Shown here piece after piece: positions 23,411 to 62,404 of a stretch of DNA of 64,000 nucleotides. The DNA is from Desulforapulum autotrophicum. Its GTDB lineage: Bacteria > Desulfobacterota > Desulfobacteria > Desulfobacterales > Desulfolunaceae. Location: positions 62,001-126,000 of the forward strand of contig DYJE01000005.1 in the NCBI GenBank assembly GCA_020723285.1. Direction: 5' to 3'. The translations under genes and the position numbers were made by a program. Below the pieces are notes generated by a model. The model did no database searches. It had not been told where the DNA came from and saw only the letters and a program-made list of their open reading frames with translations. The stretch's first letter is position 1; each line of letters begins with the position of its first letter.

Positions 23411-24550
23411 ATGACCCCTGTCATCACGTTCTCTGTGTCCAGTCCTGACAACTGTGTGACTCCGGCTTCAAGTGAATGGGGTATCCGTTTGCCAGCCGAG
23501 GGAAACCCTGACCTTCCACAAGGGAGGATGCGAGTCACTGTGGGGGACTATTTCCGAACTTCGGAAATATTTCTGGCGGAAAACGACTATTCGGTCATAA
23601 AAAAAGCGGCGCTGCACAACCTGAATCAGTCTATCACTCCATCGGACATAAAAACCGTTAATATTTGCCTTGTGAAGCACGGCCGATTTTATCATCCCGC
23701 AAAAGTCATTCTGGGTATGATCGATGGAAATTTTTTTTCCATGGCCCTCAACATGGCTTTTTCATCCGAAGGCATTGCCTGTGCCGGCAGAGAATACCGC
23801 TCGCTTTCAGCATTGGGTTTCATGACGGACCAGATCCCGAAGGTTTACGGTCAATTCTCATTATCTTCCAAGGCTGAATTCGCCTGTGTGGCTTTTTTGG
23901 CCGAGTGGTTTGAAAACTATCACGAGTTCCATCTCAGCCTTGATCATGCCGGAGCGCAGAAGCTTATAGTCTGGGACTCGGGAACCGGTCATTATTTTCT
24001 TTCAGATGATGACACGTACTCGGTTTACAGACAGGCTGCAGGGATCATGACCCGCTGCTATAACCCCTATACCTGTGAGCTGGTTCAGCCCTGGCATCAC
24101 GCTGCGGGTGATTTTGTCGTTAAACGATGTAACGGGACAGTTGACGTCCGGTTGATCACCGTTCGTCAGTACACCTCCCTTTTCCAGGATGCCCCGGACG
24201 CCGATGATCTGGAAAGCCTTTCAGAAGCAGCGGTTATGTTTCTGATCGGTCTTTCGATCCGAATGCGCCTTGACAGACTGGACGGTGTCGGGGAGCCGGC
24301 CTGGGCGGCACCCTCAGCAGTTGCCGCCACGGTTGACGGTTTTTTGGATGGCTTACAAACCCGTTCGCCCGAACAGAAACAACATATCATAAAAACGCTG
24401 GGCACCCTGAGCCTTGATGACATTCAGGAGTATGCGGAGATGATCATGGATTCGTACAACCCCATGTCACCTGATTTAAAGCTTATTGAAAAAAACATTA
24501 TAAATCATGGGCTCGAGCTTTATCAATCCATGCTTTGTTACCGAACGTGA
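23411..24550 (+). CDS. Unrecognised protein upstream of dsrA
   Basis: A 379-residue soluble protein (start at ATG 23411; a TTG at 23399 overlapping the TPR stop is the alternative). It has no signal peptide or membrane helix. The middle loosely recalls a lipopolysaccharide- or aminoglycoside-kinase-like fold: GREYRSLSALG like a helix C with its Glu, then QPWHHAAGDFVVK where such kinases have HxDLxxxNxL, then VRLITVRQY where they have LIDF. The catalytic Asp, Asn and metal Asp would all be missing, so at best this is a degenerate relative; I offer it only as a hint. The last 120 residues are helical. Translational coupling to the TPR gene suggests a joint function. Confidence 0.7.
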   Translation: MTPVITFSVSSPDNCVTPASSEWGIRLPAEGNPDLPQGRMRVTVGDYFRTSEIFLAENDYSVIKKAALHNLNQSITPSDIKTVNICLVKHGRFYHPAKVILGMIDGNFFSMALNMAFSSEGIACAGREYRSLSALGFMTDQIPKVYGQFSLSSKAEFACVAFLAEWFENYHEFHLSLDHAGAQKLIVWDSGTGHYFLSDDDTYSVYRQAAGIMTRCYNPYTCELVQPWHHAAGDFVVKRCNGTVDVRLITVRQYTSLFQDAPDADDLESLSEAAVMFLIGLSIRMRLDRLDGVGEPAWAAPSAVAATVDGFLDGLQTRSPEQKQHIIKTLGTLSLDDIQEYAEMIMDSYNPMSPDLKLIEKNIINHGLELYQSMLCYRT

Positions 24551-24663
24551 ACGATGAACACAATATATTCCGGAAAAACGTCAGGCGTCCCCAATATCGT
24601 GTCCGCTCCCTGGTTTTCAGGGCGTGGAAACACCGTAAAAACGTGAAAAGAAGACCTTTTTTA

Positions 24664-24692
24664 TTGACAATGAAAACCAATCCCTTTATACC
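24664..24692 (+). promoter_or_regulatory. Distal promoter of dsrAB
   Basis: TTGACA (24664-24669), a 17-base spacer and TATACC (24687-24692) form a near-consensus vegetative promoter. Transcription would start near 24699 and give a leader of about 170 bases. Between the preceding stop (24550) and this site I see nothing else. Confidence 0.65.
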
Positions 24693-24729
24693 ATGTACTT
24701 TGAATATCAGGGTAATGCATATCGAATAA

Positions 24730-24756
24730 TTGTAAAAGGCGATAAATATTTATAAT
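24730..24756 (+). promoter_or_regulatory. Possible proximal dsr promoter with palindrome
   Basis: TTGTAA (24730-24735), 15 bases and a perfect TATAAT (24751-24756) could form a second promoter. A 12-bp perfect palindrome, ATAAATATTTAT (24742-24753), overlaps the -10 and could be an operator. It does not match the Rex, FNR or HcpR sites I know. Confidence 0.35.
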
Positions 24757-24784
24757 TATTTTAGTTAGTTATAGTCTAGTGGAG

Positions 24785-24839
24785 TAGCTCGACAACCCGG
24801 TGTACGGGATAAACGAAGGTCCTTCGTAGTGTCGAGTTG
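24785..24839 (+). promoter_or_regulatory. Structured dsrA leader, three-way junction
   Basis: The transcribed leader can fold as a closed three-way junction. Stem P1 pairs 24785-24794 with 24830-24839 (core CTCGACA with TGTCGAG, extended by A-U and G-U pairs). Hairpin P2 is CCCG/CGGG (24796-24799, 24805-24808). Hairpin P3 is ACGAA/TTCGT (24813-24817, 24823-24827). It ends 18 bases before the GGAGG of dsrA. I do not recognise it as a known riboswitch class. It could regulate translation or stabilise the messenger. Confidence 0.5.
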
Positions 24840-24869
24840 AGAACATTTTTATCAAATGGAGGTAAGGTA

Positions 24870-26246
24870 ATGGCAAAGCATAAAACACCTTTGTTAGACC
24901 AGCTTGAATCCGGTCCGTGGCCAAGTTTTGTGTCCGACATCAAGCAGGAAGCAGCTGCAAGGGCAAAAAACGTCAAAGGTCTCGACTATCAGATTCCCGC
25001 TGACGTGTGTGAAGATCTTCTCGGTATCCTTGAACTTTCATACAAAGACGGTACGACCCACTGGAAACATGGCGGTATCGTAGGCGTTTTCGGTTACGGC
25101 GGAGGTATCATCGGCCGTTACTGCGACAAACCCCTTGATTTCCCCGGCGTAGCCGCTTTCCACACCGTTCGCGTGGCTCAGCCCGGCGGTAAATACTACA
25201 CCAGCGCTTACCTGAGACAACTCATGGACATCTGGGACCTCAGAGGCAGCGGCCTTACCAACATGCACGGTTCCACCGGCGACATCATTCTTCTCGGAAC
25301 CACCACTCCCCAGCTTGAAGAAATCTTCTATCAGCTGACCCATGAAATGAATCAGGACCTCGGCGGTTCAGGCTCCAACCTCCGTACTCCTGCGGACTGT
25401 ATCGGCAGTTCACGCTGTGAATATTCCTGCATCGACACCCAGGAACTCTGCTACTACCTGACCATGAGATACCAGGATGAACTCCACAGACCGGCATTCC
25501 CCTACAAATTCAAATTTAAATTTGACGGTTGCCCCAACGGCTGTGTATGCTCCATCGCCCGTTCCGACCTTTCCTTCATCGGTACCTGGAAAGACGCCAT
25601 CCAGATCAACCAGGCTGAAGTCAAAGCATATGTTGACGGCCAAAGCCCCGCAGGCGGCGGTTCACACAGCAGCCGTGACTGGGGTAAATTCGACATCCAG
25701 AAAGAAGTGATCGATCTCTGTCCCACCAAATGCATGGCCTATGTTAACGGCGAACTGAAAATCTATGACAAAGAATGCACACGCTGCATGCACTGCATCA
25801 ACGTCATGCCCAAAGCCCTCAAACCCGGTAAAGAAAAAGGCGTTTCCATTCTTTGCGGCGCGAAAGCCCCCATCGTTGACGGTGCCCAGATGGGTACACT
25901 GATCAGACCATTCATCGCCGTTGATCAGACCATGGACAAACAGCTTTCCGATTTCGACAGTGAAGACGAATGGGTAGAATACCTCGACGAAAAATACGCC
26001 GACATCACCGAATTCGTGGAACTGGTCTGGGATTACTGGATGGAAGAAGGTAAAAACCGTGAACGCCTGGGCGAGCTGATGATTCGGGAAGGTCTCCAGA
26101 AATTCCTTGAAAAAACCGAAACTGACCCCATGGCTGTCCATGTTCAGCATCCCCGTACCAACCCCTACATCTTCTGGAAAGAAGATGAAGTAGACGGCGG
26201 CTGGGAACGTGACATCGAAGAATACAGAAAAGCGCATGCTCGCTAG
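24870..26246 (+). CDS. dsrA: Dissimilatory sulfite reductase, alpha subunit
   Basis: The 458-residue alpha subunit of the cytoplasmic enzyme that reduces sulfite, the last stage of sulfate respiration (with DsrC as partner). The siroheme-[4Fe-4S] ligands are in place: Cys177 and Cys183 (CIGSSRC) and Cys221 and Cys225 (CPNGC), numbers that match characterised DsrA proteins. The inserted ferredoxin domain has CPTKC (284-288) and CTRCMHC (303-309). The ATG at 24870 is supported by GGAGG at 24858-24862; an ATG 11 codons upstream would place the ribosome site inside the gene. Codon use is strongly biased to C-ending codons, as expected for a very highly expressed protein. Confidence 0.99.
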   Translation: MAKHKTPLLDQLESGPWPSFVSDIKQEAAARAKNVKGLDYQIPADVCEDLLGILELSYKDGTTHWKHGGIVGVFGYGGGIIGRYCDKPLDFPGVAAFHTVRVAQPGGKYYTSAYLRQLMDIWDLRGSGLTNMHGSTGDIILLGTTTPQLEEIFYQLTHEMNQDLGGSGSNLRTPADCIGSSRCEYSCIDTQELCYYLTMRYQDELHRPAFPYKFKFKFDGCPNGCVCSIARSDLSFIGTWKDAIQINQAEVKAYVDGQSPAGGGSHSSRDWGKFDIQKEVIDLCPTKCMAYVNGELKIYDKECTRCMHCINVMPKALKPGKEKGVSILCGAKAPIVDGAQMGTLIRPFIAVDQTMDKQLSDFDSEDEWVEYLDEKYADITEFVELVWDYWMEEGKNRERLGELMIREGLQKFLEKTETDPMAVHVQHPRTNPYIFWKEDEVDGGWERDIEEYRKAHAR

Positions 26247-26258
26247 GGAGGAATAATA

Positions 26259-27407
26259 ATGGCTTTTATATCCGCAGGATACAATCCGGACAAACCCATG
26301 GAAAACCGTATCACCGATATCGGTCCCAGACATTACGATGAATTTTATCCGGAAGTGATCAAAAAGAATAAAGGAAAATGGTCACATCACGAAATTCTTG
26401 AGCCCGGTGTTCTTGTTCATGTGGCGGAATCCGGTGACAAAATCTTCACCGTTCGCTGCGGTGGTGCCCGTCTCATGACCGTCACCCACATCCGCGAAAT
26501 CTGCGACATCGCCGACAAATACTGCAACGGTCATGTCCGTTTCACCACCCGTAACAACATCGAATTCCTCGTTGATACCCTGGACAAAGTCAACGCCCTC
26601 AAAGCGGACCTCGCCCAGAGAAAATTCGACGGTGGAAGTATGAAATTCCCCGTGGGCGGTACCGGTTCCGGTATCTCCAACATCGTTCACACCCAGGGCT
26701 GGATTCACTGCCACACTCCGGCAACGGATGCTTCCGGTACCGTTAAAGCCACCATGGACGCCGTATTCGAAGATTTCCAGAGCATGAAAATGCCTGCAAA
26801 ACTCAGAATCTCCATGGCCTGCTGCCTCAACATGTGCGGCGCGGTTCACTGCTCCGACATCGCGATCCTCGGCTACCACAGAAAACCGCCAATCCTGGAT
26901 CACGAATATCTGGACAAAGTCTGTGAAATTCCTCTGGCCGTTGCGTCCTGCCCCACGGCAGCCATCAGACCTTCCAAGGTCGAGCTTCCCAACGGTACGA
27001 CGGTTAACTCCGTGGCCGTTAAGAACGAACGCTGCATGTACTGCGGTAACTGCTACACCATGTGCCCCTCAATGCCCCTTTCCGACAAGGAAGGCGACGG
27101 TATCGTTCTCATGGCCGGTGGTAAAGTTTCCAACAGAATCTCTGCTCCCAAGTTCTCCAAGGTTGTTGTGGCCTTCCTCCCGAACGAAACTCCTCGTTGG
27201 CCGACCATGACAGAAACCATCAAAAAAATGATCAACGCCTACTCCAACGGCGCCAACAAATACGAACGTCTCGGTGACTGGGCAGACAGAATCGGTTGGG
27301 AAAGATTCTTTGAAGTCTGTGAACTCGATTTCACACATCACCTGATCGACGACTTCCGTGATGCGGCTTACCACACATGGCGTCAGTCAACTCTGTTCAA
27401 ATTCTAA
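26259..27407 (+). CDS. dsrB: Dissimilatory sulfite reductase, beta subunit
   Basis: The 382-residue beta subunit, 12 bases after dsrA with GGAGG before its ATG. Ligands for the active siroheme-[4Fe-4S] centre are Cys151 and the Cys188/Cys189/Cys193 group (ACCLNMCG). The ferredoxin domain has Cys231 of CPTAAI and the [11 protein letters not shown] run (259-269). Together with DsrA it forms the alpha2beta2 enzyme that passes sulfur to DsrC. Length and composition are typical of sulfate reducers using the reductive pathway. Confidence 0.99.
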
Positions 27408-27440: not shown

Positions 27441-27472
27441 TGACCGGGGCCTGTATTTTCAGGCCCCGGTCA
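27441..27472 (+). promoter_or_regulatory. Hairpin between dsrB and dsrD
   Basis: A perfect 13-bp G+C-rich stem (TGACCGGGGCCTG with CAGGCCCCGGTCA) around the loop TATTTT lies 33 bases after the dsrB stop. No T run follows, so it is more likely to protect the dsrAB messenger from 3' decay or to attenuate read-through into dsrD than to end transcription fully. Confidence 0.75.
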
Positions 27473-27496
27473 CTCATTAAAAAGGGAGAAACAAAC

Positions 27497-27745
27497 ATGG
27501 CATTAGATAAAGCGGAAGCTCAAAAAGTCATCGTTGACCAGCTCGAAAAAAAAGGTAAATCCAAATCTAAATTCTATCTGAAAGACTTTTACGCTTTTTT
27601 TCCTGATGAAAAACCCAGAACCGTTAAAAACATCGTGAATGAACTTGTTGGTGACGGGATTCTTGAATACTGGTCAAGTGGAAGTACAACGATGATCGGT
27701 CTTAAAGGCGCTGGAAAACAAGCCGGTGCAGAAGGCGAAGATTGA
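27497..27745 (+). CDS. dsrD: DsrD winged-helix protein
   Basis: An 82-residue protein matching DsrD: KKGKSKSKFYLKDFYAFFP followed by RTVKNIVNELVGDGILEYW and a GSTTMIGLKG beta hairpin. DsrD is found almost only with reductive-type DsrAB and has been reported to stimulate sulfite reduction by DsrAB allosterically. The start at 27497 has GGGAG upstream; a TTG/ATG-like start further upstream would read through the hairpin. Confidence 0.97.
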   Translation: MALDKAEAQKVIVDQLEKKGKSKSKFYLKDFYAFFPDEKPRTVKNIVNELVGDGILEYWSSGSTTMIGLKGAGKQAGAEGED

Positions 27746-61870: not shown

Positions 61871-62404
61871 ATGGAATGCGTGGACGTGCTCGATGAACAG
61901 GGGGAACCCACCGGCGAAGTAAAAGCCAGAAAGGCCGTTCACCGAAGCGGGGAACTCCACCGCACCGTCCATGTGTGGATCATGAACGACAGACGTGAAG
62001 TTCTGCTTCAGAAAAGGGCGCAGTCGAAAAACACCCATCCCGGACTGTGGGACATGGCCTGCGCCGGTCACATCGTCCACGGGGACACGAGTCTTGAAAC
62101 GGCGGTCAAGGAAATCCAGGAGGAACTGGGAGTCGATATCCCCGAATCGGACATCGCCTATCTTTTTTCCATCCGGAGCCGGTATTCCCACCGCCATGGA
62201 CGGACGGTCGATTACGAACTCCACGATGTGTATCTGGTGAACAAGAACATTCCCCTTACCTGCTTCACACTCCAGGCTGAGGAGGTTGAAGCCGTTCGGT
62301 ATGTCAGTCTCGCTGATTTTCATCGGATGGTCCTTTCAAAAGATCCCGGCCTTGTGCCCCATTTTGAAGAGTTCGAAAAAATCTGTCAGCTGCTTTCATC
62401 GTGA
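61871..62404 (+). CDS. NUDIX hydrolase
   Basis: A 177-residue NUDIX protein resembling the isopentenyl-diphosphate-isomerase/YfcD type: EVLLQKRAQSKNTHPGLWDM, then the box GHIVHGDTSLETAVKEIQEE followed by LGV. The box follows GX5EX7REUXEEXGU with Asp for the first Glu and Lys for Arg, so metal binding is largely kept. Its start is four bases after the acyl-CoA dehydrogenase stop, so the two are one operon. The substrate (a nucleoside or other diphosphate) is unknown. Confidence 0.87.
   Translation: MECVDVLDEQGEPTGEVKARKAVHRSGELHRTVHVWIMNDRREVLLQKRAQSKNTHPGLWDMACAGHIVHGDTSLETAVKEIQEELGVDIPESDIAYLFSIRSRYSHRHGRTVDYELHDVYLVNKNIPLTCFTLQAEEVEAVRYVSLADFHRMVLSKDPGLVPHFEEFEKICQLLSS

Follow-up and report, generated by a model that had tools for sequence, protein, structure and literature searches.

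DsrAB is both a marker and the terminal enzyme of sulfate reduction. In the window (the whole 64-kb stretch of DNA analysed here, positions 62001–126000 of contig C67 in the genome coded G000; relatives and leaders carry G and L numbers), a preliminary description had proposed that a structured RNA in the leader of the dsrAB operon could control translation or stability. The question raised by this locus is whether such a fold is kept in related leaders, how widely it is distributed, and which role it may have.

The dsrAB operon and its promoter

The operon was borne out as dsrA-dsrB-dsrD by Pfam matches (NIR_SIR, DsrD), and it is preceded by an intergenic region at 24551–24869, the preceding open frame stopping at 24550. 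Table 1 reports the features of the locus. The closest named relatives of the window belong to Desulfoluna, while the dsrA leader region of a sister genus, G001, is 82% identical to that of the window.

Table 1. Positions of the dsrAB genes and of the leader features in the window
Feature	Position	Strand	Basis or remark
dsrAB promoter TTGACA-N17-TATACC, CTTTTTTA immediately 5'	24664..24692	+	common to ten relatives
Inferred 5' leader, about 171 nt	24699..24869	+	start placed from promoter sequence
Weak A/U hairpin, leader 5' half	24724..24761	+	predicted fold; segment z 0.26
Closing stem, 5' strand	24785..24794	+	RNAfold, alignment, RNAalifold
Inner hairpin 1, CCCG/CGGG	24796..24808	+	RNAfold; retained only in sister genus
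Inner hairpin 2, ACGAAG/CUUCGU	24813..24827	+	RNAfold; one pair fewer in sister genus
Closing stem, 3' strand	24830..24839	+	RNAfold, alignment, RNAalifold
A/U-rich linker, fold to Shine-Dalgarno	24840..24857	+	retained in relatives
Shine-Dalgarno of dsrA, GGAGGU	24858..24863	+	conserved
dsrA	24870..26246	+	open frame, Pfam, DsrA relatives
dsrB	26259..27407	+	open frame, Pfam
dsrD	27494..27745	+	Pfam DsrD

Leaders of dsrA were gathered from whole genomes and contigs, and 165 distinct ones were retained. A ten-leader alignment comprised those of the window, G001, six Desulfoluna, G053 and G020. In an alignment of the 330 bases upstream, CTTTTTTA-TTGACA-N17-TATACC appeared, with minor variants, in all ten relatives; in the window, TTGACA maps to 24664–24669 and, following N17, TATACC to 24687–24692. 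In addition, TTGACA-N17-TA lies 100–280 nt before dsrA in 81 loci, and the form CTTTTTTA-TTGACA-N17-TATA(T/C)C (window 24656–24692) is strongly conserved across Desulfobacterales. Of two promoter candidates proposed for the leader, this one proved strong and order-wide, whereas the other, TATAGT at 24770, is without a good -35 box and is absent in Desulfoluna.

By setting the transcription start 7 nt after the -10 box, we place it near 24699, so that the stem would begin at about +87, in the middle of the leader and not at its 5' end. The conserved promoter therefore indicates neither a start 3' of the fold (a start downstream of 24839 would have spoken against a structured leader) nor a 5'-terminal stabiliser. 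The stretch just past the putative start (24699–24735, TTTGAATATCAnGGTnnTGCATATC) is also conserved and common to G001; it forms an imperfect inverted repeat and could be an operator.

A closing stem retained in one clade

RNAfold reproduced exactly the proposed fold at 24785–24839, namely a closing stem of ten pairs, U-G and G-U wobbles both included, enclosing two hairpins. The minimum free energy was -22.9 and the z score -3.99, none of 200 shuffles being equal, and the probabilities of the closing pairs were 0.77–1.0. The gap of 18 bases between the fold and the dsrA ribosome site was likewise correct, the Shine-Dalgarno (SD) sequence beginning at 24858. Folding energy alone, however, proves little: in a scan of both strands of the 64 kb, in which the leader fold scored z -3.75, 157 of 12,790 segments 55 bases long (1.2%) had z <= -3.5, so that about 1% of them score as well.

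The ten genomes of the alignment represent the window's own family and two further family-level groups, and in the DsrA tree they form one clade (local SH-like support 99). MAFFT, which is blind to pairing, lined up both stem arms across the ten leaders, and 97 of the 100 closing-stem cells are paired, compared to 25–47% when the partners are slid by 1–3 columns. Across the clade, 8–10 of the ten pairs are retained, although the loop sequence is hard to align; the RNAalifold consensus consists of the closing stem alone, and two stem positions hold invariant C-G pairs. The stems of the window and of Desulfoluna differ at six bases without the loss of any of the ten pairs, an outcome with a P of 0.004–0.10 under random placement, as set by the share of transitions.

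Specifically, seven pairs vary on one side and one on both, and 77–106 of 500 column shuffles reach the observed two-sided change. Stem conservation is therefore consistent with selection for pairing and not proof of it. Of the compensatory change for which the preliminary description had proposed a test, little was seen: pairing is kept in ten genomes, but only one pair is two-sided and the shuffle control is unbeaten. From the alignment, selection appears to keep the closing stem paired, while the interior drifts.

The three-way junction was present in the window as described, but among the relatives the sister genus alone retains it: the two inner hairpins are common to the window and G001, whereas Desulfoluna has one long inner hairpin, in which a double change, U-A/G-C, leaves pairing intact (26 of 500 shuffles reach the same value). 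No conserved ligand-binding core was found, since the interior differs between genera and the closing stem alone is shared. A structured yet non-conserved interior fits an obstacle better than a ligand pocket. The upstream half of the Desulfoluna leaders (L103, L004–L007, L009) holds a second, very stable hairpin, AUAGCAGC...GGCUGUUAU, with a segment z of -2.8 to -6.0 and 98% pairing; at this position the window has a weak A/U hairpin only.

How far the stem extends was assessed with covariance models. The ten-leader model gave one match per genome, at dsrA, in all ten (E <= 7e-9), with no second strong match beyond dsrA in the same genomes and no convincing match in 379 further genomes of the order (best E 0.015). 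The leader L082 matched weakly (E 0.14), at the expected position. An own-family model, unfiltered, put the held-out G053 dsrA leader first of eight loci (12.1 bits, E 0.78), compared to 7.2 bits for a sequence-only score. The same model did not recover the G020 leader with filters off, and recovered neither of the two with default filters. An order-wide closing stem was rejected: in leaders with the orphan SD sequence described below, the two strands of one leader paired no better than strands taken from different species (z 0.18), and the overall z of -2.1 leans on G+C-rich leaders. The mean fold z over the 165 leaders was -0.4. Model matches and strand-pairing test across the order thus define the closing stem as a feature of one clade.

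An orphan ribosome-binding sequence in other dsrA leaders

An SD-like sequence, GGAGGUGA, mostly GAGAGGAGGUGA, was found 76–105 nt before the dsrA start in 68 of the 165 leaders. Many family-level groups have it, and in one large DsrA clade it predominates (39 of 44 rows). The orphan sequence extends over 12 bases, GAGAGGAGGTGA, with the core GGAGGTGA (examples are L054, L115, L106 and L043), and the exact 12-mer is present in 0–3 copies per genome in the eight genomes searched. At the equivalent place the window leader reads GGAGUAGCUCGACA, and the orphan site is missing.

The possibility that this sequence starts a leader peptide was rejected, as an ATG follows 4–11 nt downstream in 0 of 58 cases, compared to 10% at control positions, and any start codon in 5 of 58, compared to 36%. 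A constant spacing between the sequence and a promoter close by was also discarded, no such promoter signal being found, as was a dsrA-specific pattern phylum-wide: GARAGGAGGTGA...GGAGG...ATG is common and includes true ribosome sites. Leaders carrying GAAAGGAGGTGA, with a second SD and an ATG 50–80 nt later, were observed in several members of the phylum (G463, G389, G409, G524, G747); reversed-pattern controls were near zero, and some of these sites are true starts while others look orphan. The pattern for the 16S 3' tail was unmatched in these genomes, and pairing with the tail was considered for the CCUCC core only. By analogy, the orphan SD may bind 30S subunits without initiating translation, in the manner of a STAB-SD.

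Possible roles of the fold and comparison with known systems

The reading that we tentatively prefer, without giving it an even chance, is that the fold is a lineage-specific structured mid-leader segment, acting as an obstacle and insulator that slows mRNA decay. Such a fold would slow 5'-end-dependent decay, by RNase E scanning or RNase J, of a heavily used dsrAB mRNA, and would leave the A/U linker and the ribosome site unobstructed. The genome of the window has two genes for RNase E/G and one for RNase J. Ribosomes or sRNAs are among the obstacles that hinder scanning by RNase E (PMC7509114), and 5' structures stabilise mRNAs (PMC3997798); the position of the fold, about 86 nt past the putative start, weakens classic 5'-end protection as an explanation. 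The fold sits about where other Desulfobacterales leaders keep the orphan site and may have replaced it, and we infer both slower decay and functional equivalence to that site. By a doubtful extension, an obstacle in the middle of the leader would set the lifetime of dsrAB mRNAs in Desulfobacterales, being in many families the orphan GAGAGGAGGUGA, which would recruit 30S subunits but not start translation, and in the window's clade the stem fold. If true, two unlike solutions would serve one task at one locus.

A passive spacer, in which the stem merely stops the leader from folding onto the ribosome site and decay is unaffected, is an unlikely alternative. In its favour, the fold includes neither the linker nor the SD, and the SD was slightly more open with the natural than with a shuffled element in seven of the ten leaders, but the effect was small and, in three Desulfoluna leaders, went the other way; in silico, the stem had no consistent insulating effect on the ribosome site across the ten. 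We attach a similarly low probability to a stem with little or no function, arisen by chance and surviving through short divergence and tolerant G-U pairs. Equally good folding in about 1% of the 55-base segments of the 64 kb, mostly one-sided changes, the unexceeded shuffle control and the failure to find the stem elsewhere in the order are all in line with it, but 8–10 of ten pairs are retained across the clade next to a loop that is hard to align, and the slid controls fall far lower.

Rather improbable is regulation, whether through a protein or small RNA that binds the element or through a switch, in which CCUUC of hairpin 2 could hide the SD by pairing with GGAGG. The invariant C-G pairs, the placement of the covariance model at dsrA only and the lack of a predicted dsrAB regulator in Desulfovibrio (PMC545781), so that one may yet be discovered, would all accord with this reading; against it, the interior sequence is unconserved and no terminator-like site was found at the leader. 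In addition, CCUUC is missing in Desulfoluna, and the closing stem forms with a probability near 1. A protective stem at the very 5' end, as in ompA, with a start near 24782, is very improbable: TATAGT lies at a plausible distance and the sister genus has TATATT there, but the absence of this box in Desulfoluna, its lack of a good -35 box and the order-wide conservation of the TTGACA-N17-TATA promoter further upstream speak against it. This candidate was dropped, since the conserved promoter would place the start about 86 nt upstream of the stem.

Of the two roles first suggested for the structured leader, mRNA stability is thus the better half: no ligand core, terminator or consistent effect on SD accessibility was found. 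Downstream, a hairpin of 12 pairs lies between dsrB and dsrD in the window (27442..27471, + strand). Of 61 loci, 57 have a strong hairpin at this place (z < -3); the sequences differ and only 2 of the 61 show a U-run, so that the hairpins represent a conserved intercistronic structure and not a terminator. This is in keeping with protection of the dsrAB portion of the transcript. Our literature search found nothing relevant on dsrAB leaders or start sites, nor any described control of dsrAB expression for these bacteria, and the regulon prediction for Desulfovibrio omits dsrAB, which is absent from the HcpR regulon (PMC545781). All together, the conserved promoter, a mid-leader element that is either structured or ribosome-binding, and the dsrB hairpin suggest that mRNA stability, and not a dedicated regulator, may set the dsrAB level.

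Compared with known systems, the fold resembles the riboswitches and cis-regulatory motifs of Rfam 15 in being a junction-like structure in a leader, but neither a conserved core nor an expression platform was found in the window leader. The Rfam search matched no family in the window (best sub-threshold score 17.4 bits, compared to the 54 needed) and none in six relatives. Like the fold, the STAB-SD of cry3A in Bacillus thuringiensis (PMC4113751) lies in the leader at a distance from the start codon and would protect mRNA against 5'-dependent decay, and the orphan-SD dsrAB leaders of the relatives look much alike. The element of the window leader, by contrast, has a stem and lacks a full SD-like sequence: upstream it offers GGAGU only, no site of the GGAGG type, and G000 gave 0 pattern matches. 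Moreover, the cry3A site is near the 5' end, while the dsrAB elements are mid-leader. The 5'-terminal stem-loop stabilisers (ompA, papA, aprE leader; cited in PMC3997798) likewise combine a folded leader with an unobstructed ribosome site downstream; their stems stand at the mRNA 5' end, whereas the dsrAB stem lies about 86 nt past the putative start. In conclusion, the dsrAB leader fold fails the tested features of riboswitches, STAB-SD elements and 5'-terminal stabilisers. We take it for a local protective fold more probably than for a known kind of RNA switch, and would class it as a new instance of a structured mRNA leader whose role is putative.
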